This document shows, piece by piece, positions 41,366-64,000 of a stretch of DNA of 64,000 bases. The position numbers were made by a program, and so were the translations under genes. The notes beneath the pieces were generated by a model that had not been told where the DNA came from, did not search any database, and worked only from the letters and a program-made list of their open reading frames with translations. Every line of letters starts with the position of its first letter. The first letter of the stretch is position 1. Source of the stretch: Armatimonadota bacterium (lineage in GTDB: Bacteria > Armatimonadota > Fimbriimonadia > Fimbriimonadales > Fimbriimonadaceae); NCBI GenBank assembly GCA_018268395.1, contig JAFDWQ010000003.1, positions 407,238 through 471,237 of the forward strand, given 5' to 3'.

Positions 41366-43078
41366 ATGGGTATGACCGACCACGAAGCCTGTCCCGAAGC
41401 CGTTGTCCCGACCGATTTCATCCGTGAAGCGGTCAAGCAAGACTTGGCCGAGGGGCGCTTCCAGTCCGTCGTGACCCGGTTCCCGCCGGAACCCAACGCC
41501 TATCTCCACATCGGCCACGCCAAGGCCATTTGGATCGATTACGGGGTCGCGGCGGACTTCGGGGGCCTCTTCATCCTTCGGTTCGACGACACGAACCCGC
41601 TTAAGGAAGAGCAGGAGTTCGTTGACGCGATCATCGAAGACGTGAAATGGTTGGGGACCGACTTCGGCGACCGGCTCTACTTCGCGTCCGACTATTTCGG
41701 CCGGATGTTCGACTATGCGGTCGAACTGATCCGGAAGGGTAAGGCTTACGTGTGCGACCTCTCGAACGAAGAGATGCGGGAGTCGCGGGGAACGCTCAAC
41801 AAGCCGGGAACGGACAGCCCGTTCCGGGACAGGAGCGTCGAGGAGAACCTGGACCTCTTTGACCGGATGAGGGCCGGCGAGTTTCCTGACGGTGCGAAGA
41901 CGTTGCGGGCGAAGATCGACATGGCTTCGCCCAACATCGTCATGCGGGATCCGGTCATGTACCGTATCCGCCACGCCCACCATCACAGGCAGGGCGACGA
42001 GTGGTGCGTTTACCCGAGCTATGACTGGGCACACGGACTGGAAGACTCGATCGAGGGCGTCACGCACTCCCTCTGCACCCTCGAGTACGAGATCCATCGA
42101 CCGTTGTACGACTGGTTCCTGGAAGAGCTGGGCGTCTACCGACCGCGCCAGATCGAGTTCGCAAGGCTGAACCTCACGTACACCGTGATGAGCAAGCGCA
42201 AGTTCGTCGAACTCGTGAAGGGCGGGCATGTCCAGGGCTACGACGATCCGCGGTTGCCCACGTTGGCCGGCCTCCGCCGACGCGGGTATACGGCGGAAGC
42301 CGTGCGTGAGTTCTGCCGTCGGGTCGGCGTCTCGAAGGCGGACTCGACCAACGAGGCCTATCAGCTTGAAGACTGCCTGAGGGAGGTCTTGAACAAGTCG
42401 GCCGGTCGTTTGATGGGCGTCTTGAACCCCTTAAAGGTCGTTCTCACGAACTACCCGGAAGAGCAGGTCGAGGACTTAGAAGCGGTCAACAACCCCGAAG
42501 ACCTGGACGCCGGTACGCGGTTCGTGCCGTTCGCCCGTGAGATCTACATCGACCGCGACGACTTCCGAGAGGTGCCGCCGCCGAAGTACTACCGACTGAG
42601 TCCTGGCGTCGAAGTCCGTCTCCGCTACGGTTACCTCATCCGGTGTGAAAGCGTGGTCAAGGACGAGAACGGCGAGGTCGTCGAACTTCGGTGCACCTAC
42701 GATCCTGCGACCAGGGGAGGCAACACCCCTGACGGCCGCAAGGTCAAAGCTACGATCCACTGGGTCGCGGCACCGACGGCCGTCAAAGCGGAGGTCCGGC
42801 TCTATGACCACCTGTTCCTCAAGCCTGATCCGAACGACGTGGCAGAGGGAGACGACTACCTCGCGAACCTCAATCCGGACTCGCTGACCGTAACGACCGC
42901 GTGGATCGAACCGAACGTCCGCAGTGCGGTGGCGGGCCAGAGCTTCCAATTCGAGCGCGTCGGTTACTTTTGCGTCGATCAGGATTCGAAACCGGACAAG
43001 CTCGTTTTCAACCGGGCGGTCACCTTGCGGGATTCCTGGGCCAAGATCGAACAGGCCCAATCTGCCGGGAAGCCTTGA
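41366..43078 (+). CDS. glnS: Glutaminyl-tRNA synthetase
   Basis: The 570-aa class I enzyme has HIGH at 48-51 ([11 protein letters not shown]) and the KMSKS-like motif VMSKRKF at 274-280. The catalytic domain has [16 protein letters not shown] and [16 protein letters not shown] blocks typical of GlnRS, and the C-terminal anticodon-binding beta barrels are present (length about 550-570 aa). Direct GlnRS replaces the Glu-tRNA amidotransferase route where it is present. Start is ATG 41366 or 41372. No Shine-Dalgarno sequence is clear. Confidence 0.95.
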
Positions 43079-49036: not shown

Positions 49037-49108
49037 GCCGATGTAGCTCAGTGGTAGAGCAGCTGTTTCGTAAACAGCAGGTCACCAGTTCGAATCTGGT
49101 CATCGGCT
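49037..49108 (+). tRNA. tRNA-Thr (anticodon CGU); likely attachment site of the downstream island
   Basis: Cloverleaf with acceptor GCCGATG/CATCGGC, D arm GCTC-GAGC, anticodon stem CTGTT/AACAG around loop TTCGTAA (CGT) and T arm CCAGTTCGAATCTGG. The 3' end is 122 bp upstream of a tyrosine integrase start, the usual layout when a tRNA 3' end is the integration site. I did not find a repeated copy of the tRNA 3' end inside the window. Confidence 0.95.
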
Positions 49109-49230
49109 CCAATGATTGAACCTAATCCATACGGGATACGAACGGTTTTTCGTGACGCCGAAGAACCACTTCCGAAAAAACCTCCGAATTCCTGTAGCGT
49201 TCGCTTGCGCCGTGATGCCAGAGTCATCAC

Positions 49231-50382
49231 ATGAAGAAGGCGAAGAACAAGGACGCGAACATCACTCAGCGCGGCAATTCCTACCGCGTCGAGATCAAGT
49301 GGCGACTGAAAGACGGTACACCTTTTTGCCGCGACCTGCAGCGGGCGACCATCGAGGACGCCCGTGCCGAGCGCGATGCCATTTACGAAGAGTACAACCG
49401 ATTGCTCTTGAACCCTGGCGTCCGCGACGGTCGGCCCGACAAGCCCATGACCGTGGACGCGCTGTTCACCTTTATTTGCGAACGCGACTGGTCGAACGAA
49501 CAGGACAAACACGTCCGGCACTTCCGGCGGCTCTATGGGAAGCACGTCAAGGCAGTTCTTGGGCGGATGCCCGTGAATGCCGTCAATCCCGGCGACGTCA
49601 ACCAGCTCCTTGCTGATCTTGCCGCATCGAAGGTCAAGTACAAGGGGGTTGAGCGTCCGCCATCGGAAGCGTTCCTCAAGTACGTGTTCTCAACCGTATC
49701 CCGCCTGTTCAGCCTGGGCCGTCAGCATGGCATGACGACCGCCAATCCGTGTTCCGTCAAGGTGAAGTGGTCAAAGCTGACGGAAGAACGAAGGCTGCTT
49801 GATTTGACTGAGAAAGCCGCTGAGAGCGACAAGGAAGACTTGGACGCCAAGGTTCTGACTGACAAGGAGCGGAAAAGGCTCCTGACGGGCGTTGAGGGCA
49901 CTCCTGCGCACATCGTCCTGACCCTGATGGACAACCTTGGTTGCAGGACAGGCGAGGCGCTTGGGCTCGTCGGCAAAGATTTCAACTTTGAAACCAAGCG
50001 CGTCCGGATCTGGCGCACCTACGAAAACGGCAAGTACAAGCTCACAAAGAACAAGCAGACCCGTTCGATCCCTTTGAGTAAGGCTCTGATTGACTACCTA
50101 CAGTCACTGCAACGTGGCCCGGAGGAAGCGATCGCGCTCAATGGATCGGGCCGGCCGCTTGACCAGAAGCCATTGTCAGAGCTGGTCGTTCCTGCGGTCA
50201 AAGCTGCAAAGCTGCCAAGCCAGGTCAGTCCCTATTGGCTCAGGCATTCCTACATTAGCCGGAAGCTGGCCGAAGGCAAGAATCCCGTCGATGTAGCCAA
50301 GGTGACGGGTCACACGGTGGACACGCTTCTCAAGAACTACGCCTGGGCAATCCCCGAAGCGCTGAACAACTTTGTTGACTGA
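49231..50382 (+). CDS. Tyrosine-type site-specific integrase
   Basis: The 383-aa integrase has an N-terminal arm-binding domain (about 1-70), a core-binding domain (KHVRHFRRLYGKHVKAVLGRM, about 75-190) and the catalytic domain: R239 in GCRTGEALGL, beta-strand K276, YWLRHSY with R338/H339 (the canonical first His of HxxR is Tyr335), H361 in VTGHTVD, and nucleophile Y370 in KNYAW. It should recombine the element into the adjacent tRNA-Thr. Composition is AT-richer than the core genes. An excisionase-like gene lies just downstream on the other strand. Confidence 0.92.
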   Translation: MKKAKNKDANITQRGNSYRVEIKWRLKDGTPFCRDLQRATIEDARAERDAIYEEYNRLLLNPGVRDGRPDKPMTVDALFTFICERDWSNEQDKHVRHFRRLYGKHVKAVLGRMPVNAVNPGDVNQLLADLAASKVKYKGVERPPSEAFLKYVFSTVSRLFSLGRQHGMTTANPCSVKVKWSKLTEERRLLDLTEKAAESDKEDLDAKVLTDKERKRLLTGVEGTPAHIVLTLMDNLGCRTGEALGLVGKDFNFETKRVRIWRTYENGKYKLTKNKQTRSIPLSKALIDYLQSLQRGPEEAIALNGSGRPLDQKPLSELVVPAVKAAKLPSQVSPYWLRHSYISRKLAEGKNPVDVAKVTGHTVDTLLKNYAWAIPEALNNFVD

Positions 50383-50825: not shown

Positions 50826-51325
50826 GCAACCCCCGTTGCAAGCGTGGCGAAGCCACAATGGATAAGTTTACAGCAGTATCTAGCACAAACGTTCTGATAG
50901 AGATGCCAGAAAACCTTCCTGCTTCACGGCATTAAGAATATCAACAACTGCTACCATCTCCACGAGCGCAGCCCCCATTACTGGCCGAGTGGAAATCAGT
51001 CTACCAATGAACCTCAGCGGAGCACTCCGACGCTTGGCTGATCAACTCCCTTCTAGGCCTTTGGCAGTCTTTTTGAACGACTGCCAATATTCTTGCGGCT
51101 ATTCCTAGATTTGTCCCGTCTCCAGTCTTTGGAGGGTTTTTCTACAAGCGAACGAAAGAGTGCCGCGGACACCTGCAGAGCCATTTTGCCTAGGCCCGCG
51201 GGGCCCAAAGCCGTGTGACCGCCAGGCTCTTGCACAGGTATACTTGTGTGCACTATCTTACCGGGCCCATCACCGTTTCGTGGACTCGTCTTCGGACGGG
51301 ATGGACGGAACTTGAAGGATTTAGG
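50826..51325. other. Intergenic region before the CBASS operon, possible small minus-strand ORF
   Basis: No convincing gene. A minus-strand frame from GTG 51253 or ATG 51184 to a stop at 51053 has plausible coding text (MALQVSAALFRSLVEKP...), but I give it only about 0.2. It ends in the arm of the 9-bp inverted repeat at 51061-51087. The CBASS ribosome-binding site (gaaggattt) is at the right edge. Confidence 0.4.
51061..51087. repeat. Perfect 9-bp inverted repeat
   Basis: ttggcagtc (51061-51069) and gactgccaa (51079-51087) with a 9-bp spacer. Symmetry and spacing suit a dimeric repressor site or a small hairpin; it lies about 240 bp before the CBASS operon. Confidence 0.45.
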
Positions 51326-52225
51326 ATGAAACAAGAAAGAAACTTGCCGGGCATTGAGGCTCCGGGCATTTACGACATCAGGCGGCTGCCTCACGCCGAC
51401 TTCAAGAAGCACTGGCAGTCTATTATTGTCGCGCCCGAGTTAAAGGAGTCTCTGCTATGCCAAGCTGCTCTCAATTTTACAATGCGTGGCCGAGTTGGTC
51501 GAAATGTGGTGCCTTTGCACGGGATCATACTTCTGACGGGAAAGCCAGGTACGGGGAAGACAACGCTAGCAAAGGGTTTGGCCTCCGAAACTGCCGACCT
51601 GATCAAAGGCAACGGTCTTACATTCGTGGAGGTTGAGCCTCACTCGCTTGCGAGCTCGGCTTTGGGCAAAACACAGCGCGCAGTGTCTGACCTGTTCGCG
51701 ACGAGCATCGCTGAGATCGCCATGCAGGGGCCTACCGTTGTTTTGCTTGACGAGGTGGAGACTATCTTGGTTGACCGGGCAAAACTCAGCCTAGATGCCA
51801 ACCCGATCGATGTTCATCGCGCTACCGATGCTGCGCTAGTGGCCCTCGATCATCTGGCGGAGAAGCATCCAAATCTGCTCATCATCGCAACGAGCAACTT
51901 TCCCCAGGCCATAGATGGTGCTTTCGTCTCGCGCTGCGACGTGGTTTTCGAAGTCCCTCTGCCTGATTCCCAGGCTTCTCACTCAATTTTGGCAAACACA
52001 CTAGATCAGTTGTCAAACACCTATCCTGAGCTAAGGGGCTTCACTAGGCGACCACAATTTGCTGCACTGGCCGCCAAGTGCGTCGGCCTAGATGGAAGGC
52101 AGATCCGCAAACTTGTTGCTGCCGCCTGTACGTTCGACAAGAAGACCGCGCTAAATCCCGGTCTACTCACTGAGAAAGATATCGAGAGGGCTGCGTTGCG
52201 AGCGCTCAAGGACGTGCGACGATGA
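51326..52225 (+). CDS. cap6: TRIP13/Pch2-like AAA+ ATPase of type III CBASS (Cap6)
   Basis: ATG 51326 follows gaaggattt; the frame upstream is noncoding. The 299-aa protein has an N-terminal helical domain, Walker A GKPGTGKT (72-79), a VEPHSLASSALGKTQ pore-like region, Walker B VVLLDEVE (138-145), sensor IIATSNFPQAIDGAFVSRCD and a C-terminal lid. TRIP13-like ATPases remodel HORMA proteins and so switch the CD-NTase off or reset it. The stop overlaps the next gene (ATGA), the first of three couplings in the operon. Confidence 0.9.
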   Translation: MKQERNLPGIEAPGIYDIRRLPHADFKKHWQSIIVAPELKESLLCQAALNFTMRGRVGRNVVPLHGIILLTGKPGTGKTTLAKGLASETADLIKGNGLTFVEVEPHSLASSALGKTQRAVSDLFATSIAEIAMQGPTVVLLDEVETILVDRAKLSLDANPIDVHRATDAALVALDHLAEKHPNLLIIATSNFPQAIDGAFVSRCDVVFEVPLPDSQASHSILANTLDQLSNTYPELRGFTRRPQFAALAAKCVGLDGRQIRKLVAAACTFDKKTALNPGLLTEKDIERAALRALKDVRR

Positions 52226-52695
52226 GCAGTGCCGTCGCACGCACCTACAAATCCGTGCCAGAACGGACTGCACCTGACACTTGGCGGGCCATTGTGTCGC
52301 TCATCGCACCTGAGCCGGGCGACGCGCGGGATGAACTCATGCGTATCGAGGGGATTGCCTGTTCTCTGATCACAGACAAGGCATTCAGGGCCCCTTCGCC
52401 TGCCACTGTGACGGGCCCCAACCCACGGGTGCGGATTTACTGTATCTATGACGACGATGCAATCGAGGGTGACAAAGCTTCCGAACAGGCCCTAAGTTTC
52501 ACCGCGACCGAGGGCGATTGGGCTATGTCCCTTCCGTGTTTCAACTCAGATTTGTCATGGGTTCAAGCGGCGCTGAAGAATAAGTCAACGCGTATCACCG
52601 CCCGCGACCGCGACCAGGGCCTTAACTTAGGCGAAAGCAACGACAACACCCGCGCAGCTGTTATGTTTGATGAGGAGGCATTTCTGCGATCATGA
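52222..52695 (+). CDS. CBASS accessory protein, candidate second HORMA-type protein (Cap8-like)
   Basis: The 157-aa protein sits between the TRIP13-like and the HORMA gene, with ATGA overlaps on both sides. Type III CBASS operons often carry two HORMA-related genes, and this is the expected slot. Strands are visible (RVRIYCIYDDDAI, ALSFTATEGDWAMSLPCF) and a helix near residues 25-45, but I cannot assign the HORMA fold from sequence. It may be an inhibitor or a second activator. Confidence 0.65.
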   Translation: MSSAVARTYKSVPERTAPDTWRAIVSLIAPEPGDARDELMRIEGIACSLITDKAFRAPSPATVTGPNPRVRIYCIYDDDAIEGDKASEQALSFTATEGDWAMSLPCFNSDLSWVQAALKNKSTRITARDRDQGLNLGESNDNTRAAVMFDEEAFLRS

Positions 52696-53201
52696 GCGCA
52701 ACCACTGTTTCTGTAAGCACCTATACACACTCTGTAACATTTGTCACCGATAACATTCTGAAAACGCTAAAGGACATCATCGTCTTGAGTGGTCTGAGCC
52801 CAGAAAAAATGACTACTGACTGGCATGTTCTGCATTCAGGTATTAGCACATGGATACATTCGGGGCACCTTGAGCGCGTGACACTTGAGGTCTACAATAC
52901 GTCCTCGGACGCCCTGATCGGACGTTGGGATATTGACATTTCCTACGAGTGGTCGGGCGGAAATGGCCGCTTTTGGGTCGATACAGATCAAATTAGGAAC
53001 GCCATCAAGAAGTCGGGCATCTGGCCATCTAGTGCCGCTTATGCCATTAAAGTCAAAAACAGTTCAGGCGAGCCTTACGTTGCGGGCTGGGGTGACTGCA
53101 ATTTCCGTTCGACCCAAGGTTTTGTGCGTCAAAGCCTCGGCACTAATGTCGAACACAGTGGCCTCGGTGGTTCGGCGAGCTATTATAGGAAGGTTTCCTA
53201 G
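52692..53201 (+). CDS. cap7: Bacterial HORMA protein (Cap7)
   Basis: The 169-aa protein shows the bacterial HORMA pattern: [26 protein letters not shown] (helix A region), [24 protein letters not shown] (strand with Trp) and [24 protein letters not shown], with a C-terminal segment that can act as a safety belt. It would bind a peptide signal and activate the CD-NTase encoded next. It overlaps the accessory gene by 4 bp and is 2 bp before the cyclase gene. Confidence 0.88.
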
Positions 53202-53203
53202 GC

Positions 53204-54100
53204 ATGCTTACGACCGACGAAGCCTTCAGGAAATTCAAGTCTCGGCTCGAACTCAACTCGCGAGAACAGGATAACGCAAGCAAGCGACATACTGAAGTGC
53301 GCGATCACATGCGTTGCAAGTTCTCAATAGACAACGACTTTCTAACAGGGTCTTATGCGCGACACACCAAGACAAAACCACTTAAGGACATTGATGTGTT
53401 TGTGGTTCTTGGCGAAAAGGAGAAACATTACCGCGAGGAGCATCCGTCGAACGTGATGTTGGCCTTCGAGACGGCCCTTGTGGAAAAGTACGGTAGTAGT
53501 TCAGTGTCCAAGCAGCGTCGCGCGGTGACGGTTGACTTTGGAGTGAAGCCTGATGCCGATGACAAGACCGATTATCGGGTTCTAAGTCTTGATGTTGTCG
53601 CCGCCTTCAAGGACGGTGACAACTACGAGATACCAGATGCTACCGAAGGCAAGTGGGTCAAGACCAATCCGAAAGTGCATGCCGAAAGAGCAGTTTCTGC
53701 GCACCAAGCTTACAGTAGTGAGTGGAAGGGCCTTGTTCGGATGGTCAAGTACTGGAACAACAAGAAACACGCGGATAAGCCAGTCAAGCCATCCTTCTTG
53801 CTTGAAGTTATGGCACTGGAATGCCTTCATGCGCCTTGGTCGGGAAATTATGCGTATGAGATGCAAAGCTTTTTTGCCACGCTATCAAACCGCATAGATG
53901 AAACGTGGAACGACCCAGCAAATTTGGGCCCACCAGTAAGCGACATGATGGATTCAGTACGCAGGGCCACAGCAAAGGCAGCGCTCAAGTCGGCGGCGCG
54001 TGAATGTACGCTTGCAATCGATCTTGCCCGCCAAGGCAAGAACTACGAAGCGCTCAAAGCGTGGCGTGAGCTATTTGGGCCAATGTTCCCGCTCTCGTGA
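53204..54100 (+). CDS. CD-NTase, cGAS/DncV-like nucleotidyltransferase of CBASS
   Basis: The 298-aa enzyme has the nucleotidyltransferase motif [21 protein letters not shown] with G49-S50 and metal-binding D62 and D64, and a third acid D130 in SLDVVAAF. The C-terminal helical domain contains [27 protein letters not shown]. It makes a cyclic oligonucleotide when the HORMA protein is engaged. I do not assign a clade (CdnC or CdnD are usual in type III systems). It is 7 bp from the effector gene. Confidence 0.9.
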
Positions 54101-54107
54101 GATGTGA

Positions 54108-55589
54108 ATGGCGAATCAGACGGGCGCAAGATTGAAGGGCGATGATTACCAGCACATCACCACATGGCTCCACGTGCTGGAACTAAAATACCCGCGTTAT
54201 CGCGTCAGACTGGTCACTGTTGAAGATGAGACAAGCGGTTCGGCGGACGACATTACTGTTCGCTACTCTCCTGAGTCTGGGCAGCCTGATCGTTTCTATC
54301 AGGTGAAGTTTCACACGACGCACGCTGGTGCATACTCGACTGAAGCACTTTTGAAAAGAAAAAGAAAGGGGACTAGCCTACTGACCAAGCTTTTCGCCAC
54401 GTGGAAGAAGCTGAAGGATGCGGAGCCTGAGCGCGAGGTCGAGTTACATTTGGTCAGCAATTGGTCTTGGAGTGCGGAGGATGCAGTAGCCACGCAGATT
54501 GACGGCGAAACAAACAAATTTCGTCAATCGTTCCTCACAGTTTCCAACCAGGAAGACGCTGGAAAGGCCCGAAACAAGTGGCAAGCCCATCTTGAGGCTG
54601 ATGCAACCACCTTCGCGCGGTTCATCCAAGACATACGCCTCTGCCTAGGTGCCGCGTGCTTTACTGAACGAGCGCGTCACGCTAGCGAGCGAATGGCCAA
54701 TCTAGGACTCAAGCACGACGAAGCAGCCTTGCTCGTCGCAGTCGGCATCGTTCGTGGGTGGATTAAGAGTGGCCTGCAGCAAGTGACACACGCCGTTCTG
54801 GATGAAGCGATCACAGCCAATGACTTGCGTGCCGAGACTGACGAAAACTGCAGGATAGTTCATCTGACTACGATCAAGAAGCAATCCACGGACTTGCGGC
54901 CCGATTACGTCATCGACTGGCGCGTCGAGTTTGAGGGCCAAGATCAACTCAAAGGTCACGCACCAAAGGTCAGCAACGCATGGAACGAGAAGTTCTTGCC
55001 CGAACTGCACCGCATTGAAGGTGAAATTGCTGAGGAGTCGGGTGTGAGACTGATCCGTGCCCGCGGGCTTGCAAGACTTTCTGCCTGGTTTGCATTTGGG
55101 TATGTGTTTTCAGAAGTTAGCCGCTATGTGATTGAGGTCGATCAATACGGCAACCTTTGGCGGACGGACTCAGCGCCGTCCAATCGGTTCGAGATTGTAA
55201 CTTCCAACATGGATGGCGAGGTCTGCCAAGGTAATAGTGACACCGTTGCAGTGGGTATTAGCATAACAGGCGATCTTTCAAGTGACGTGCGTGATGCCCT
55301 TTCTGACTCTGGCTTGGCGTCACACTTGCTTCTACTTTCTCCCAAGGAGGGGCCTGGGAGGGACGCCTTTGTTGACGCGGGAGACGTGGTCACGTTTGCG
55401 CGTCAAACAAAGACGCTGATCTCATCTTATGTCCGACAACGGAAGGCTAAGAGGGTGTGTATTTTCTATTATGGGCCCCTTAGTGGTGCCTGCTTTTTAG
55501 GGAGCGTCATGAATGCAGTCGGAGCGGAAATTCAAATCATGGAAGCGCAGTACGACAGAACATACCTACCCTCCTTCCTTCTTGCCTAG
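54108..55589 (+). CDS. cap4: DUF4297-SAVED effector nuclease (Cap4-like)
   Basis: The 493-aa effector has two parts. The N-terminal DUF4297-type endonuclease (about 1-200) carries a PD-(D/E)XK-like site: GDDYQH, DDIT at 47-50 and QVK at 65-67. The C-terminal half (about 280-493) is a SAVED domain that reads the cyclic nucleotide: SITGDLSSDVRDALS, LLLLSPKEGPGRDAFVDAG and a Rossmann-like RVCIFYYGPLSGACFLG. Ligand binding should trigger DNA degradation and cell death or arrest. Last gene of the CBASS operon. Confidence 0.88.
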   Translation: MANQTGARLKGDDYQHITTWLHVLELKYPRYRVRLVTVEDETSGSADDITVRYSPESGQPDRFYQVKFHTTHAGAYSTEALLKRKRKGTSLLTKLFATWKKLKDAEPEREVELHLVSNWSWSAEDAVATQIDGETNKFRQSFLTVSNQEDAGKARNKWQAHLEADATTFARFIQDIRLCLGAACFTERARHASERMANLGLKHDEAALLVAVGIVRGWIKSGLQQVTHAVLDEAITANDLRAETDENCRIVHLTTIKKQSTDLRPDYVIDWRVEFEGQDQLKGHAPKVSNAWNEKFLPELHRIEGEIAEESGVRLIRARGLARLSAWFAFGYVFSEVSRYVIEVDQYGNLWRTDSAPSNRFEIVTSNMDGEVCQGNSDTVAVGISITGDLSSDVRDALSDSGLASHLLLLSPKEGPGRDAFVDAGDVVTFARQTKTLISSYVRQRKAKRVCIFYYGPLSGACFLGSVMNAVGAEIQIMEAQYDRTYLPSFLLA

Positions 55590-55670
55590 CAACGCGCCAA
55601 CTGAAGTCGCGCACCACTCAGAACTGTGTCTATGTGCTCGCCGCCGCCTTGACGAGCCGTCGGGACGGTT

Positions 55671-55790
55671 TCCTCCCGGCCTTGGAACACATGTTCGGCG
55701 GACGCCTGGCAGGATGCGCCAGCGATAGCGCACGATCATCGCCGCTGCGCAACTGCCCCGCTTCGCTCTCTACGGCTGCCGAACGGCGTT
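55671..55790 (+). repeat. Left copy of imperfect direct repeat (candidate attachment site)
   Basis: About 120 bp that match 63883-63999 with a few small gaps. An exact 19-bp core gcggacgcctggcaggatg (55698-55716) recurs at 63906-63924, and a second shared block aactgcccc-cttc-ctct lies about 35 bp later. It lies about 360 bp before the second integrase gene. Confidence 0.65.
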
Positions 55791-55917
55791 TCCAGCCCGC
55801 TGCCCTCGGACCTTCCACGCGGAATGGCGACATTTTTGCTGTGCTTCCTTGGCGCCGGAACAACTTGCACATCCAGTTGCACACAGGTGAGTGATTTTCA
55901 AAATCATCCAGCTATGT

Positions 55918-56044
55918 CAATGACTTAGTCTTACACGATGACGACTTAAAATTGATCTGACTTAATCCTTTAGTTTATATTTCGAAGCAATTCCAATGAT
56001 TTAGTCTTGACACATTGTACGATCAGCCTTACACACGACTTACA
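55918..56044 (+). promoter_or_regulatory. Repeated motifs upstream of second integrase (possible arm sites)
   Basis: caatgacttagtcttacac (55918-55936) recurs as caatgatttagtcttgacac from 55994, and cttacac appears again near 56028 and 56038. Such spaced short direct repeats next to an integrase gene are typical of arm-binding or autoregulatory sites. Confidence 0.4.
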
Positions 56045-56076
56045 CAAAGTGACACATCGTCCAGGGAGGGTGGAGC

Positions 56077-57327
56077 ATGACAGAGCATCACAAGATCATG
56101 GGAGGCAAGTTGCATGTCTACCGTCGTGCGATGAGCACGAACTGGCAGTGTTCAGCATACCTAAAAGGCAGAAACTGGCGAGTGAGCACTAAAACGGACA
56201 GCTTGGCATTGGCTAAAGAGTTCGCAGAAGACTGGTATTTAACATTGCGCGGCAAGGAGCGTGCTGGCACGTTGAAGTCAGGTAAGACATTCAATGAAGC
56301 TGCAGATCAGTTTCTCAGGGAAGTCGAAGCTCTGATCGCTCACGACCGTGGTCAGCACTATGTGCGCGGTCATCAAGACCGTTTGCGGGCACATTTGCGT
56401 CCGTTCTTCGGGACGCGCATCGTCTCTGACATCACTCCAGGTTTTGTACAGGAGTACCGAATCCACCGGTCAACTTCAAAGAGAAACCCAGCCACGGGGG
56501 AGTTGATCAAACCGGCACGTAACACGATTCATCAGGAGATCGTCACGCTTCGCCAGGTTCTAAAGACAGCAAACCGGCAAGGTTGGATCGCATACGTGCC
56601 CGATCTGAAGGATCCATTCAAAGCGCCCAGCAAGATCAGCCACCGAGGATGGTTTTCTCACGACGAGTACCGCAGGCTATACGAAGCAACGAGAGCAAGA
56701 GCCGCCAATCCGCTCAAGCCCCGTTGGAAATGGGCCTGTGAGCAACTGCACGATTACGTTCTGCTTGTCTGCAATTCGGGTTTGAGACCTGACGAAGCCG
56801 CACGTCTAGAGTTCCGGGACGTCACCATCGTCAGGGACGAGGCAACACGAGAGAAGATTCTCGAGATCGAGGTGCGAGGCAAGCGGGGCCTAGGTTACTG
56901 CAAGAGCATGCCAGGTGCCGTTCGTCCCTTCGAGCGGCTCCGCGAAAGGCCGCGTGCAGTATCCGGCGTCGGTCAATCCGGAGAAGGACGAAATTCGAGA
57001 ACTTCGGCCGAGCGTCGACTTCCGCTCCCGACGGATCTTCTGTTTCCGAAAGCTCACACAGAGCTGCTCAATAGCATTCTCGATGAGCTCGACCTCAAGA
57101 AAGACCGCGACGGAAACTGGCGGACGGCATACTCGCTCCGCCACTCGTATATATGCTTTCGCCTGCTTGAAGGTGCAAATATCTACGAGATCGCAAAAAA
57201 CTGCCGCACCAGTATTGAGATCATTCAGAAGCACTACGCGGCCCATCTTAAGAATATGATCGACGCATCGGCAATCAATCTTAGAAAGAAATCTCCCCGT
57301 CCATCCCGCCACAATAAAGCAGCATAA
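56077..57327 (+). CDS. Second tyrosine integrase
   Basis: The 416-aa protein starts at ATG 56077 with ggagggtggag upstream. It has an arm-like N-terminus (CSAYLKGRNWRVSTKTD), core-binding helices (about 75-200) and the catalytic domain with GLRPDEAARLEFRDV (first Arg), TAYSLRHSYI (Arg/His), and KHYAAHLKNM (nucleophile Tyr). A basic tail follows. It is only distantly related to the first integrase, so two elements probably integrated separately. AT-richer than the core. Confidence 0.88.
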   Translation: MTEHHKIMGGKLHVYRRAMSTNWQCSAYLKGRNWRVSTKTDSLALAKEFAEDWYLTLRGKERAGTLKSGKTFNEAADQFLREVEALIAHDRGQHYVRGHQDRLRAHLRPFFGTRIVSDITPGFVQEYRIHRSTSKRNPATGELIKPARNTIHQEIVTLRQVLKTANRQGWIAYVPDLKDPFKAPSKISHRGWFSHDEYRRLYEATRARAANPLKPRWKWACEQLHDYVLLVCNSGLRPDEAARLEFRDVTIVRDEATREKILEIEVRGKRGLGYCKSMPGAVRPFERLRERPRAVSGVGQSGEGRNSRTSAERRLPLPTDLLFPKAHTELLNSILDELDLKKDRDGNWRTAYSLRHSYICFRLLEGANIYEIAKNCRTSIEIIQKHYAAHLKNMIDASAINLRKKSPRPSRHNKAA

Positions 57328-57975: not shown

Positions 57976-59508
57976 CTACACAATCTCCTCCAACTCTCTA
58001 CGCGGATATTTGCTTATCCGTTCGCCGATCATCCAGCTCACCTTTCGAATTGACTCTAAGGCCTCATCCCTTTGCCGTCCGCGCCGTCCAAAAACAGGCG
58101 ACTTTTTGCAGTGCACCGTTAGGATACCATAAATACTCCTCTTGTGAAGTATAGGAAAACAATGAAAACTGTCATACTCCTGTCTAATGAGATAGGCTTC
58201 AATTGCTTCGGCCACTTGGCGGGACTGACCTTCGCCGAATTTTCGGCGTTGCTTTCTGATATTGTTGACTGGTTGCTCCTGAAGCGTTTTCCAGCATGCA
58301 GGAGCGCCGAACACTACGGACTGCGCATCCTTGTCTACTAGCAAGGTAAAGCCTTTTGGAGTATGAGGGTACCTATCGGCCCATTGCACAAGGCAAAGGG
58401 CTTCAGAGTACTTTCGGTGGAGTGCTGGCGGATTCAGCAAGTGAGGTTCAGGATAGTAGATCTCTCTTATTCCTGCTTTGACGTCATCCATGGGCCATCT
58501 GGCGGTCACTTTACGGGGAATCATAATATTGCAATTTATTCCCGTGGTCTCTGGGTTCTCCTCGCTTCGTGCCCAGAGTGCCGACAACTGAACAATCGTG
58601 CACATGATTCTCAGTTGGACTGCAATGGGCATTTCGTCGCTTATGGACTCAAACGCCCTGACAATGCGCTCGCCTAGCGCGAGATCGGTGTTCTGAAGGA
58701 GTGATTGCAGGCTCCTTCTGCTGGGAGTGCGATACTGGGGAAATAAAATCGGTGGAGCAATACTTCCTTGCAAGCGTAACAGTGGTCGTACAAATGCCGA
58801 TTTTACGGACCTGTTTAGCTCGGAGACCGTATCTTGAATTGCCTCAATGGTAGCCATGAGGGAGACACTTTCAAAGCTCCATGCGTCGCACAATTGGTTA
58901 AGAAGCAACGTAGTAAATGCCGTGCCACCGTTGAGTACGCGTGACGGTTCTAAGTATCCTGATGATGCAGCAACGGTAAGTGATGTCGCATTATTATCGT
59001 CGGCAAAATCCTTAGTATCGGGAAACGCGACTGCTTGGGTCATGACCTGTCCGGCATAGCAGGCGTCGAAAATGAAGTGCTTATGCACACGTGGAAGATG
59101 TCGAACTAGCACTGAGAGAAGATCTGTTGCTTTAAGAGCAGTAGCTGTCAACTTGCCCTCTGCATGTTTGGAGGTTTTCAAGAGAAGATAGTATTCCCTA
59201 TCATAAACTTGGCCATGGCCGATGAAGTACACTACAATGCTTTCTAACGGTTCCGGCAGCGAATTCCGCCAGTCAATGACAGCTTCCAGCGTCGCTTCCA
59301 TGCCTTGACTGGAATCGAAGAGATCTAAGAGCTTAACAGCGGTGCCCTGCCGGATCCATGATTCGTGTGAGAAGTAGGCCGCCAATCGGTCATGGCTGGT
59401 TCTGATCGCGAGGCAGGTGCGAAGCTTCGCGACCTTGTCCGCGCCCTGTGATTCCCCAAGGTATCCAACGTATTCGGATGATCCCAGAAGCAGGATGCCT
59501 ACGTTCAT
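57976..59508 (-). CDS. Caspase-like protease with C-terminal GAF-like domain
   Basis: The 510-aa protein has a C14-type protease domain with H98 in YFIGHGQVYD and C150 in FIFDACYAGQ, followed by a helical mid region. The C-terminal roughly 190 residues resemble a GAF sensor domain (CNIMIPRKV, GFTLLVDKDAQSVVFGAPACW, CFPILHKRSIYGILTVHCKKSPV). No signal peptide or membrane segment. It begins 3 bp after the stop of the EACC1-like gene. Caspase domains linked with sensory modules are typical of bacterial programmed-death and antiphage systems. Confidence 0.82.
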   Translation of the reverse strand: MNVGILLLGSSEYVGYLGESQGADKVAKLRTCLAIRTSHDRLAAYFSHESWIRQGTAVKLLDLFDSSQGMEATLEAVIDWRNSLPEPLESIVVYFIGHGQVYDREYYLLLKTSKHAEGKLTATALKATDLLSVLVRHLPRVHKHFIFDACYAGQVMTQAVAFPDTKDFADDNNATSLTVAASSGYLEPSRVLNGGTAFTTLLLNQLCDAWSFESVSLMATIEAIQDTVSELNRSVKSAFVRPLLRLQGSIAPPILFPQYRTPSRRSLQSLLQNTDLALGERIVRAFESISDEMPIAVQLRIMCTIVQLSALWARSEENPETTGINCNIMIPRKVTARWPMDDVKAGIREIYYPEPHLLNPPALHRKYSEALCLVQWADRYPHTPKGFTLLVDKDAQSVVFGAPACWKTLQEQPVNNIRKQRRKFGEGQSRQVAEAIEAYLIRQEYDSFHCFPILHKRSIYGILTVHCKKSPVFGRRGRQRDEALESIRKVSWMIGERISKYPRRELEEIV

Positions 59509-59511
59509 CTA

Positions 59512-59877
59512 TTAGAAGTCTAGGATTTCTCGAAGGATTTTCAGAATGCTGACTTCTGTAGGCTTTGAAATACCCTCAATAACAATTGGGCCTGCACCGT
59601 GCATTGGATGTCCTTCAGGCAGCGAAATGGAAATCTTACCTGTCGGACGCGTTCTCAGATAGTCGAAGAATCCCTTTGCGACTTCGACCAAGACGGGTGC
59701 TGCCAGGATCATAGTAATGAAGTTAGCCACATTTTGCTCTCCGGCTGCGGCCGTCGGCGCGGCGAGAGCGAGTTTTCGGAGATGATCATGCAGCGCGAGC
59801 ACCTCTGCGCTTTGAGGCGAGCTTTCGTCCTCGATTGCCGCTGCGGAGATTGAAATCTGAAGTCCGGCCTCAGGCAT
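59512..59877 (-). CDS. EACC1-like effector-associated protein
   Basis: The 121-aa protein matches the look of EACC1 (effector-associated constant component 1): an N-terminal strand/helix region, a hydrophobic helix NFITMILAAPVLVEVAKGFFDYLRTRPTGKISI in place of the ALVAWLRSR segment, and a final beta strand. EACC1 proteins accompany caspases and other effectors in conflict systems. It is upstream of and tightly coupled to the caspase gene. Homology is by pattern recall and needs a profile search. Confidence 0.6.
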   Translation of the reverse strand: MPEAGLQISISAAAIEDESSPQSAEVLALHDHLRKLALAAPTAAAGEQNVANFITMILAAPVLVEVAKGFFDYLRTRPTGKISISLPEGHPMHGAGPIVIEGISKPTEVSILKILREILDF

Positions 59878-59976: not shown

Positions 59977-60268
59977 GCGGACGTGGCGAAATGGTAGACG
60001 CAACGGACTTGTTCAAGTGAGTGCCCGCTGGGAAACCAGCGGAGCAGAACTGCTCAAATTCGGGGAACCCCAGCATCGGGCGATCCCGAGCCAAGCCTGC
60101 TCGCAGGAAGGTGTAGAGACTAGACGGGCAGCACCTACCGCCAATGAATGGCCAAGGTGAAGGGATAGTCCAGACCACGAACGCCTACAAGCGGCGGCGC
60201 AAGCCGAAGTGGTACGAAAATCCGTTGGGAGCAATCCCGTGCCGGTTCGAGTCCGGCCGCCCGCACCA
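59977..60268 (+). tRNA. tRNA-Leu (UAA) interrupted by a group I intron
   Basis: 5' exon 59977-60010 (acceptor GCGGACG, D arm GCG-CGC type, anticodon 5' half ...ACGGACTT), intron 60011-60216, 3' exon 60217-60268 (AAAATCCGT..., long variable arm, T arm GGTTCGAGTCC, acceptor CGCCCGC, encoded ACCA). Joining gives the loop CTTAAAA with anticodon UAA. One mismatch (A5-C68) in the acceptor stem may slightly weaken it. It lies inside the island, 100 bp from the EACC1-like gene. Confidence 0.88.
60011..60216 (+). ncRNA. Group I (IC3-type) self-splicing intron in tRNA-Leu
   Basis: The 206-nt intron interrupts the anticodon after its first base, the site used in cyanobacterial tRNA-Leu(UAA) introns. 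P1 forms between exon ACTT and intron GAGT, giving the required U-G pair at the 5' splice site. Q-like cgatcccgagccaagcc, R-like gtgtagagactagacgg and S-like aagggatagtcc elements occur in order, and the intron ends in G (60216). It has no ORF, so it depends on self-splicing. An IC3 class is inferred from these elements. Confidence 0.9.
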
Positions 60269-61974: not shown

Positions 61975-62012
61975 TTGACGATACCTCTAACACATGCTAT
62001 CATCGTTAGAGG
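61975..62012 (+). promoter_or_regulatory. Sigma70-type promoter with overlapping operator for abiEi-abiEii
   Basis: TTGACG (61975-61980), 17 bp, TATCAT (61998-62003) is a textbook promoter. An 8-bp perfect inverted repeat, cctctaac (61984-61991) and gttagagg (62005-62012), brackets the -10 box. AbiEi-type antitoxins bind such repeats to repress their own operon, so this is very likely the operator. The ATG follows at 62026 with aggaaac upstream. Confidence 0.75.
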
Positions 62013-62025
62013 AAACAAGAATTCA

Positions 62026-62628
62026 ATGCCGACCAAACGTCAGCAGATCCTCGAACTTGCCAAGCAGAGAGGCGCCATTCGGCCACGCGACCTCCGACAG
62101 ATCGGTGTGAGTCCAAGCTACCTCGGCCACCTCATGTCCAGAGGTGAGCTCATCAGATCGAGCAGGGGCCTCTACACACTGGCGACATTCGAACTCACCC
62201 AAGATCACACTCTCGTCGAAGCCGTCCGGACTCAGCCCAAGGGCGTCGTCTGTCTACTTTCGGCCCTCGCTTTCCATCACGTCGGCACACAGCTGCCACA
62301 TCAGGTTTGGCTAGCCGTCCCCTTTGGATCGTGGATCGCCAAGCCGAGCGGAATTCCTATCAGAACCGTCGTCATGCGCCACGACGGCTACTTTCCAGGA
62401 ATCGAGAGACACCAAATCGAAGGGGTCGAGGTGCCAGTCTATTCGGTCGCAAAGACCATTGCAGACTGTTTCAAGTTCAGGCAAACAATTGGAATTGGTG
62501 TGGCCATCGAAGCCCTCCGCGAAGCCCTGCGCGATCGCCGTTGTACTCGGGACGAACTGCACAGGCACGCCAAGGCACTCCGGGTGGAACGCGTCATGCG
62601 TCCATATCTTGAGGCACTTTCAGCATGA
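62026..62628 (+). CDS. abiEi: AbiEi antitoxin (type IV toxin-antitoxin)
   Basis: The 200-aa protein starts at ATG 62026. N-terminal winged helix (ILELAKQRGAIRPRDLRQIGVSPSYLGHLMSRGELIRSSRGLY) is the family's DNA-binding part; the C-terminal domain has the ALAFHHVG and VPVYSVAKTIADCFKFRQTIG blocks typical of AbiEi. It represses the operon and neutralises AbiEii. Stop and the next start overlap (ATGA), as in known AbiE pairs. Confidence 0.9.
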   Translation: MPTKRQQILELAKQRGAIRPRDLRQIGVSPSYLGHLMSRGELIRSSRGLYTLATFELTQDHTLVEAVRTQPKGVVCLLSALAFHHVGTQLPHQVWLAVPFGSWIAKPSGIPIRTVVMRHDGYFPGIERHQIEGVEVPVYSVAKTIADCFKFRQTIGIGVAIEALREALRDRRCTRDELHRHAKALRVERVMRPYLEALSA

Positions 62629-63497
62629 GCAAGCCCGTCACCAACGTCGGAGAGTCCCTTCGTGCACGCCTGTTGAACACAGCGCGTGCACGCAATGAGA
62701 CATTCGATCTGGTCTTAACCAGGTTCGCCCTGGAACGATTCCTCTATCGCCTCTCCAACTCTGAGCACAGGTCAAGTTTGATCCTGAAGGGCGCCATGCT
62801 CTTTGAGCTCTGGAGTGGCACCCCGCACCGTGCCACCAGAGACCTCGACCTTTTGGCGAAAAGTATCGACAGCGATCAGATAGCGCGGATCCTTCGAGAG
62901 ATCTGCCCGCCCGAAGTCGATCCCCCTGACGGCCTGCACTTTGATCTAGCCAATCTTAAAATCGCCGAGATAAGGGAGGCGGACCGGTACGGAGGCATCC
63001 GGGCTAAATTTGTGGCACGACTGACCACTGCGATCATTCCCATTCAAATTGACTTCGGCATTGGTGACATCGTGACCCCGGAACCTGAGGAAACCGACTA
63101 TCCAACCTTGCTCGACATGCCTGCACCTCGGCTCCTCGCATATCCTCGCGCCACTGTCATCGCCGAGAAGCTTGAAGCCGTAGTCGATCTTGGGTTCGCC
63201 AATAGCCGATTGAAGGATTTTTTCGACCTTTGGTTCTTTGCGACGACTTTTAACGATGATCTGGAGAGCTTAGCGATTGCCGTCCGTCGCACCTTCGAAC
63301 GCCGTGGCCAAACGGTGCCAGACTCGGTGCCCAACGGACTCAGCGACGAGTTCGCTGAGTATGCAGGAAAGCACCAGCAATGGGCAGCTTTTGTGGGCGG
63401 TTTAGGCACGGAAGCCCCGAGTCTGGCTGACGTGATCGCAGAAATTCGACCGTGGGCATCGAAAATCTTCGCACTTGCACGAAACACTTCAGCATAA
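62625..63497 (+). CDS. abiEii: AbiEii toxin (nucleotidyltransferase)
   Basis: The 290-aa protein carries the AbiEii/DUF1814 pattern: LILKGAMLFELWSGTPHRATRDLDLL (nucleotidyltransferase-like acidic DLD pair), VARLTTAIIPIQIDFGIGD and ATVIAEKLEAVVDLGFANSRLKDFFDLWF (Lys-rich block with KDFFDLW). AbiEii blocks growth by modifying an RNA target until countered by AbiEi. The gene is intact and coupled to the antitoxin by ATGA. Confidence 0.9.
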   Translation: MSKPVTNVGESLRARLLNTARARNETFDLVLTRFALERFLYRLSNSEHRSSLILKGAMLFELWSGTPHRATRDLDLLAKSIDSDQIARILREICPPEVDPPDGLHFDLANLKIAEIREADRYGGIRAKFVARLTTAIIPIQIDFGIGDIVTPEPEETDYPTLLDMPAPRLLAYPRATVIAEKLEAVVDLGFANSRLKDFFDLWFFATTFNDDLESLAIAVRRTFERRGQTVPDSVPNGLSDEFAEYAGKHQQWAAFVGGLGTEAPSLADVIAEIRPWASKIFALARNTSA

Positions 63498-64000
63498 GCC
63501 AGTCTGAGTAACCATGTCAAAACAATCCGAACCGACTGGCAAATTCCTGCAGTTAACACATCAATATTCGGTCTACAGAAAGCTGAGTAGTCTAAAATAA
63601 GTGGGTAGCACTGCCCCGACTCCTCCCTGCTCCGCAACCGAGGCCCGCGTCAAGCAGAGGCGCCAAATTCAATTATGCCCGCAAAGCGGCCACGTATAGT
63701 AACTTGTGACCGCCATCCAAGCCCTGGTCTCGAAAGGAGCAAATGACTGGGGCTCTTCTCGCATTGTGACCGGAAGGGGTGGCCGGCGAACATGTCCCGG
63801 TCTGACCCGATGAAACGGTAAGTTCCCATGATAGAGAGATTGGTGTTCGTACCCTTTGTGACCAAGGAGTGGACGGCCACCTCCCGGACAATCGGCACAC
63901 GCCTTGCGGACGCCTGGCAGGATGTTCTCCGTCGCATGAACCATCGCCTCCGAACAACTGCCCCACTTCACTCTGACGGCTGCAAGCCGACGCCAATAAT
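63498..64000. other. Gene-poor end of window with right copy of the imperfect repeat
   Basis: 503 bp without a credible gene; small open frames here look like noise. The right-hand repeat copy (63883-63999) matches 55671-55790, with the exact 19-bp core at 63906-63924. The sequence stops at the window edge, so the true boundary of the island may lie beyond it. Confidence 0.5.

Follow-up and report, generated by a model that had tools for sequence, protein, structure and literature searches.

We propose that a split tRNA-Leu(UAA) gene, from a genomic island of an Armatimonadota bacterium, provides the rescue tRNA in a cassette for tRNA-dependent integration. The cassette comprises attP, a tyrosine integrase (int2), and the intron-bearing tRNA. 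We put the probability of this reading at about 0.78. The gene lies in what we will call the window, that is, the whole 64,000-nt stretch of DNA that was analysed (Table 1). In the proposed mechanism, the integrase would recombine attP with the host's tRNA-Leu(UAA) gene at its anticodon stem-loop, and the 9-bp GACTTAAAA would be the only sequence that the two sites share. The native tRNA-Leu(UAA) would be cut at its anticodon loop and would not be rebuilt; instead, the element's own tRNA-Leu(UAA) would take over after self-splicing of its intron. This intron lies between U34 and A35, which is inside the attachment core. The core of the replacement gene would therefore not be contiguous, and the integrase should be unable to insert into this gene or to recombine it with attL or attR. 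The spare tRNA could keep the host alive, and it is probably itself hidden from the enzyme.

Table 1. Features of the window that are discussed in the text, in order of position
Feature	Position	Strand	Basis
tRNA-Thr(CGU), island boundary, presumed int1 target	49037..49111	+	tRNA call; GC drop
int1, second tyrosine integrase of the island, adjoins tRNA-Thr	49231..50382	+	Pfam Phage_integrase, E 1.6e-13
CBASS operon (island cargo): TRIP13-like ATPase, two HORMA proteins, CD-NTase, SAVED effector	51215..55589	+	
attP left arm-type repeat pair, TTGCACA x2	55865..55883	+	In integrated relatives, attR flanks have the same motif pair on this side of the core
attP core GACTTAAAA	55943..55951	+	Equals the anticodon-loop region of tRNA-Leu(UAA)
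attP right arm-type repeat pair, TTACACA x2, just upstream of int2	56029..56046	+	
int2, tyrosine recombinase, 416 aa	56077..57327	+	Weak Pfam Phage_int_SAM_5; conserved catalytic residues
Caspase-like protein, 510 aa, between int2 and the tRNA	57976..59508	-	NCBIfam caspase_w_EACC1, E 2.9e-14, below cut-off
Small ORF, 121 aa, adjoins the caspase-like gene, no family	59512..59877	-	
tRNA-Leu(UAA) 5' exon, ends at U34 of the anticodon	59977..60010	+	ARAGORN with introns; alignment of relatives
Group I intron, 206 nt, between U34 and A35	60011..60216	+	Rfam RF00028; structure and covariation in 20 relatives
tRNA-Leu(UAA) 3' exon, long variable arm, encoded CCA	60217..60268	+	ARAGORN with introns; alignment
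AbiEi/AbiEii toxin-antitoxin pair, island cargo	61975..63497	+	

The split gene and its island

An earlier note on this DNA had described 59977-60268 as tRNA-Leu(UAA) with a group I intron after the first anticodon base (U34). Sequence analysis confirmed this description, with splicing and expression predicted. With introns allowed, ARAGORN called a single tRNA-Leu(taa) over exactly this interval, with exon boundaries at 60010 and 60217. The spliced product (86 nt) was also called tRNA-Leu(taa): the exons fold with a UAA anticodon and have one mismatch (A5-C68). The note had suggested a covariance scan, and the intron matched the full Rfam model Intron_gpI (RF00028) from end to end, with 45.1 bits and E = 2.3e-10, which is slightly under the curated gathering score of 50. 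It is the sole Intron_gpI match of this kind in the whole genome; its closest family relative (L066) scores 49.2 bits. When 20 related genes were aligned, the P1 pair at the 5' splice site was U.G in all of them (columns 35 and 49), and 24 of the 81 predicted pairs showed compensatory changes. The 3' terminus of the intron is ..GGTACG, with a terminal G. The MFE folding on its own is unremarkable (z of -1.8), so the case for the intron stands on covariation and homology and not on energy. A candidate 18-bp repeat, between 57657 and the start of the tRNA, was no better than chance.

The gene is easily missed. Without introns, ARAGORN reported only tRNA-Gln and tRNA-Thr in the window. The split gene thus escapes both default ARAGORN and Rfam at the gathering threshold, and it was found at lower thresholds. 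For related genes, ARAGORN sometimes gave Ser, Phe, Tyr, Stop, or other labels because it shifted the intron boundary by a few bases; we retained these genes as Leu(UAA) by their sequence.

The note had also placed the gene in a mobile island, and base composition agrees: GC content is ~0.63 to the left and falls to ~0.54 from 49.1 kb on, directly after tRNA-Thr(CGU) and beside an integrase (int1). This drop and this border imply that the split gene lies in an island, which runs on beyond the end of the window. A copy of the tRNA-Thr 3' end was considered as a mark of the right end, but it was merely a 12-mer at ~73 kb (in window coordinates) and was unconvincing. Imperfect direct repeats at 55663-55769 and 63871-63974 (72-82%, 8.2 kb apart) bracket the segment from int2 through the tRNA to AbiE. 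The caspase-like protein at 57976-59508, which is of the EACC1-associated type at a score below the cut-off, is possibly a defence module. A check that the note had proposed, for a second intact tRNA-Leu(UAA), gave a positive result: the host genome has a full set of tRNAs, including an intact intronless tRNA-Leu(UAA) at C3:176079-176161. The split gene is therefore not the host's own.

Why would the island carry a second copy? The note had suggested that it supplies decoding for the island, that is, that it improves translation of island genes with UUA codons. UUA accounts for 4.1 per 1000 codons in the island genes and 1.6 per 1000 in sampled host genes, but it is still rare in the island, where CUU, CUC, and CUG are used far more, and the host already has tRNA-Leu(UAA). 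This suggestion would also leave the attP and the linkage to an integrase unexplained, and we consider it highly improbable.

The note's other suggestion was rescue from an anticodon-cleaving defence. Phage tRNAs are thought to act against anticodon nucleases in other systems (discussion of PMC10865867), and an island tRNA might likewise shield its bearer from such nucleases or from other tRNA-cleaving defences. The island is rich in defence genes: those that we recognised are CBASS with a SAVED/PD-(D/E)XK-type effector, the caspase-like protein, and AbiE. However, the recognised island genes had no matches to an anticodon-nuclease family, and the gene that consistently neighbours the split one in different genomes encodes an integrase with this same tRNA as its target rather than a nuclease. 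A nuclease as the origin of the damage is very unlikely. The idea of a rescue tRNA fared better: the comparative evidence says that the damage would be done by the element's own integrase.

The integrase int2 has an attP just upstream of it. Four catalytic residues of int2 (R237, R355, H356, and Y387) are conserved in all 29 homologues and mark it as a tyrosine recombinase, and Tyr352 occupies the usual position of the first His in box II; a comparison of int2 to PDB sequences gave nothing useful. The 9-bp core GACTTAAAA occurs once in the window. Only two arm-like repeat pairs are present in the 64 kb (at 55865 and 56029), and both of them flank the core, next to int2. Since the core and both arms are present and there is no tRNA half at the site, we classify it as attP and not as attL or attR. 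The window's element does not lie in a tRNA-Leu(UAA) gene: the native gene is intact and attP has both of its arms. The cassette has not been used at tRNA-Leu, and it presumably came with the island next to tRNA-Thr. This speaks against rescue in the window's own genome, as the element is not at tRNA-Leu, the host has kept its gene, and no rescue is occurring there. With the native gene intact and attP unused, the tRNA in the window is a spare, which would matter only after integration at tRNA-Leu. Its function would be potential, not current.

The window gene might even be a decaying relic with no function in its own genome, which would be compatible with rescue as the role of the family. The acceptor pair 5:68 is A-C in the window gene and is G-C, A-U, or G-U in the other 19 of the 20 genes. 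Also, 2.6 kb of other DNA (the caspase-like gene and the small ORF) separates int2 from the tRNA, versus mostly ~27-350 bp in relatives. Given the mismatch and this separation, the tRNA may be decaying, and the intact native gene is consistent with that. On the other hand, the int2 ORF is full length with conserved catalytic residues, the attP core and both arms are intact, and the intron core and the exons are otherwise conserved. On balance, a functionless relic seems unlikely.

Related cassettes and the wider distribution of the intron

In many genomes, homologues of int2 (~47-63% identical) are found directly upstream of the tRNA; at 16 loci, this tRNA is an intron-bearing tRNA-Leu on the same strand. 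When 15 ORFs from the window were compared to these loci, int2 (56077-57327) alone recurred. Of 113 genomes from the window's order, 2 have a copy of int2, each time paired with the split tRNA. The other integrase-linked case in the window's family, G075, resembles the window's unused attP form. The island around this sister cassette (L334; G075:C1:255000-274900) also encodes multiubiquitin/E2-like genes, MobA/MobL, and Shedu-like and TraG-like proteins.

Relatives of int2 in Alphaproteobacteria and Acidobacteria have integrated into the native tRNA-Leu(UAA) at its anticodon loop, and the two halves of the gene lie at the ends of the elements. Upstream of the integrase, the 5' half of the native gene ends at the anticodon loop (..GACTTAAAA) and is followed by element DNA. 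The matching 3' half, in which element DNA is followed by GACTTAAAA and the rest of the native gene up to CCA, was found in Devosia, B. lablabi, and Pelagibacterium. In Devosia, both halves are on one contig, ~38 kb apart (native 5' end at 599602 and 3' half at 561489-561542), and when joined they form a tRNA-Leu(UAA) with complete pairing. In B. lablabi and Pelagibacterium, the 3' half is on a different contig from the 5' half; these joins were likewise recognised. One metagenome-assembled genome has both an empty and a filled site: the upstream flanks are identical at 149 of 154 positions and diverge right after GACTTAAAA, with an intact tRNA in one and the element in the other. The integrated elements also have paired short repeats at both ends, as expected of arm-type integrase sites (TTACACA-like, or the variant TTAGCAC at both ends in B. 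lablabi). Upstream of the integrase at another locus, L355, there are tandem tRNA-Leu 5' halves, CAA-type and then UAA-type, as if the locus had been hit twice.

For intact intronless tRNA-Leu(UAA), we used two patterns, one of which recovered the host's gene as a positive control. Neither pattern found such a gene in the genomes of B. lablabi and Pelagibacterium, so the split gene appears to be the sole complete tRNA-Leu(UAA) there, and it would presumably be essential. Across the cassette family, rescue from a self-inflicted loss of tRNA appears well supported, both by this anatomy and by the proven precedent in phages (see below).

The intron-bearing gene is widespread. The junction pattern matched at least 118 stretches of bacterial genomes, mostly from Alphaproteobacteria but also from Acidobacteriota, Planctomycetota, Bacteroidota, and others, and at least 120 stretches of viral contigs. 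Among the matches listed, many of the viral contigs (L197-L316) have a group I intron in tRNA-Leu(UAA), often without an encoded CCA. A comparison of the whole split gene to plasmids gave 1278 records in total, including Bradyrhizobium at 83% and mostly enterobacterial records at ~75%. In two enterobacterial records, the split tRNA-Leu(UAA) is unannotated and lies beside an AAA ATPase gene and aac(3)-II (L076 6001-6299, which is pCTX-M3, and L078 4001-4298). In a phylogenetic tree, the enterobacterial plasmid copy is near Enterovirga (Methylobacteriaceae), hinting at the origin of the resistance segment. The tree places the window's gene with genes from Nitrobacteraceae and Rhizobiales, within Alphaproteobacteria, and the gene of G075 with Caulobacteraceae; most branches are weakly supported. 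These different groups suggest that the two cassettes were acquired separately.

The intron is not exclusive to the cassette. Most of the stand-alone intron-bearing tRNA-Leu genes in Alphaproteobacteria lie among ordinary genes with no integrase, and we found no common integrase upstream of 83 other intron-bearing tRNA-Leu genes. Of the other group I tRNA introns that we examined in the window's phylum (in tRNA-Arg, tRNA-fMet, and others), none adjoin integrases, which makes the link a specific feature of the Leu(UAA) cassette.

These observations fit another account, in which the cassette is a tRNA-dependent integration module and the intron is a neutral passenger that came from Alphaproteobacteria whose tRNA-Leu(UAA) was already split. 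There, the intron-bearing gene is common without a nearby integrase, and in 31 of 35 genomes from the pattern scan we detected no intronless copy of tRNA-Leu(UAA), so the split gene looks like their ordinary one. The nesting of the window's gene among those of Nitrobacteraceae and Rhizobiales fits as well. Against this, two stand-alone genes (L077 and L183) adjoin integrase remnants, so some of the stand-alone genes may be relics of cassettes.

Intron or altered core in the replacement genes

Because our earlier searches had required the intron, we used a protein search with int2 to assemble a panel that was not selected for introns (297 genomes of one family). Eleven elements in this panel have the Leu(UAA) core, and a severed native half is present for 10 of them. 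The remaining element (L362) has inserted outside tRNA genes; in its genome, a sister element already occupies the native gene. All 11 carry a complete tRNA-Leu(UAA) replacement directly downstream of the integrase, and in nine of them the replacement contains the intron. As for the two intronless replacements, pair 30:40 is swapped in L351 (CACTTAAAATG), and the core is unchanged in L356. In two relatives that target tRNA-Leu(CAA), the replacements are also intronless; a loop base is changed in L343, and pair 30:40 is swapped in L349. Among other relatives of int2, the tRNA-Met(CAU) target is rebuilt classically (L345-L347), and tRNA 3' halves are present in attP (L373, L375, and L376). Judging by this anatomy, one integrase family has three ways out: to rebuild the target, to bring a replacement with an altered core, or to bring a replacement with an intron in the core.

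A parallel comes from the Gordonia phage Daredevil, which was described as integrating at tRNA-Lys(TTT) with no rebuilding and with no tRNA encoded (PMC10865867). In its genome (NC_048021.1), we found an unannotated tRNA-Lys(UUU) that is split at 34/35 by a 238-nt group I intron (L342 3840-4151, corresponding to 41820-42131 of the record). It lies upstream of the integrase, on the opposite strand, which is the same place as the rescue tRNA in the related phages that we examined. Its anticodon arm equals the attP core over 15 nt, but it is split. The intron reaches just 15.4 bits in Rfam, so the case for it stands on its similarity to the window's intron and exon junction (79.5% identity over 119 nt) and on the tRNA halves. 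The phage forms clear plaques, and these would agree with an intron that splices poorly in the laboratory host. Daredevil appears to be an independent parallel: an unrelated element, with another isotype and a different integrase family, has the same combination. In its intron-free relatives BrutonGaster, Wintermute, Mollymur, and Bantam, pair 30:40 or pair 31:39 is swapped or changed. In Cain and SpeedDemon, the differences are confined to positions outside the central core.

Overall, the intronless replacements are mostly altered at 30:40, 31:39, or a loop base (L351, L349, L343, BrutonGaster, Wintermute, Mollymur, and Bantam), and the intron-bearing replacements keep their core bases. In these small samples, which are not corrected for kinship, masking would be the most economical account of why introns or core changes occur at the attachment core. 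Specifically, a self-splicing intron might act as a mask, so that the tRNA works as RNA while its DNA is invisible to the element's own integrase and to competing ones. We view the odds of this as evenly balanced. Masking is not required, as the core is unchanged in the intronless replacement of L356 and is mostly retained in those of Cain and SpeedDemon. Also, core bases 31-34 of the intron-bearing genes may be conserved simply for P1 pairing.

L356, which has no intron and kept its core, is also compatible with an intron that is only a neutral passenger. However, a passenger would not explain why altered cores tend to go with the intronless replacements and not with the intron-bearing ones, or why the same combination occurs in Daredevil, whose element is unrelated and whose isotype and integrase family differ. 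We regard the neutral passenger as a possibility to be taken seriously, but a doubtful one.

Relation to known systems and significance

The closest known system is tRNA-dependent lysogeny (Guerrero-Bustamante and Hatfull 2024, PMC10865867), whose mechanism, without an intron, was proven experimentally in mycobacteriophages such as Fionnbharth. The cassette shares with it a tyrosine integrase, a short attP/attB core in the anticodon region of a host tRNA, a target tRNA that is not reconstructed, and a tRNA of the same isotype on the element. The differences are in the integrase, the hosts, and the intron. First, int2 belongs to another integrase family and had no match among 50,697 phage records at E 1e-8. 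Second, while the described systems are from actinophages, the hosts of the cassette are Alphaproteobacteria, Acidobacteria, and the window's phylum, and its carriers include islands and plasmids. Third, the replacement gene in the cassette is usually split at the core by a group I intron; this combination is absent from PMC10865867, in which the word intron appears once. An intron that interrupts the attachment core of the replacement gene would be an addition to the scheme of tRNA-dependent lysogeny.

The window's intron resembles the known group I introns of tRNA-Leu(UAA) in its tRNA, its position (U34/A35), its P1 U.G pair, and its terminal G. Unlike the known cases, the window's gene is an extra copy and lies within an integration cassette. 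According to a 2014 review (PMC3984707), all phage introns seen until then were in protein genes, and there was scant evidence for horizontal movement of bacterial introns. Islander-type islands, which rebuild their tRNA target (PMC4383910), also combine a tyrosine integrase with a tRNA gene as attB, but the Leu(UAA) cassettes replace their target with a complete gene and do not rebuild it. Finally, Randau and Soll proposed that disrupted tRNA genes protect against integration (as cited in PMC4390854). As cited there, the idea shares with ours that an intron in a tRNA gene removes the integrase's target; it concerns disrupted tRNA genes of the host, chiefly archaeal, whereas in the cassette it would be the mobile element itself that uses a ribozyme intron. 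In the open-access literature (most subscription journals were outside our scope), we found no paper that makes this connection between group I introns, tRNA genes, and the attachment sites of integrases.

The cassette joins two separate lines of work, on the group I introns of bacterial tRNAs and on integrases that break a tRNA gene while bringing a substitute. It also indicates that standard tRNA annotation overlooks such replacement genes: besides the tRNA of Daredevil, well over a thousand plasmids contain the split tRNA-Leu(UAA), which is unannotated in the records listed. The older idea of introns as a shield of tRNA genes against integration becomes directly testable. If masking is true, it would give the group I introns in bacterial anticodon loops a selected function, and it could help to explain their position.
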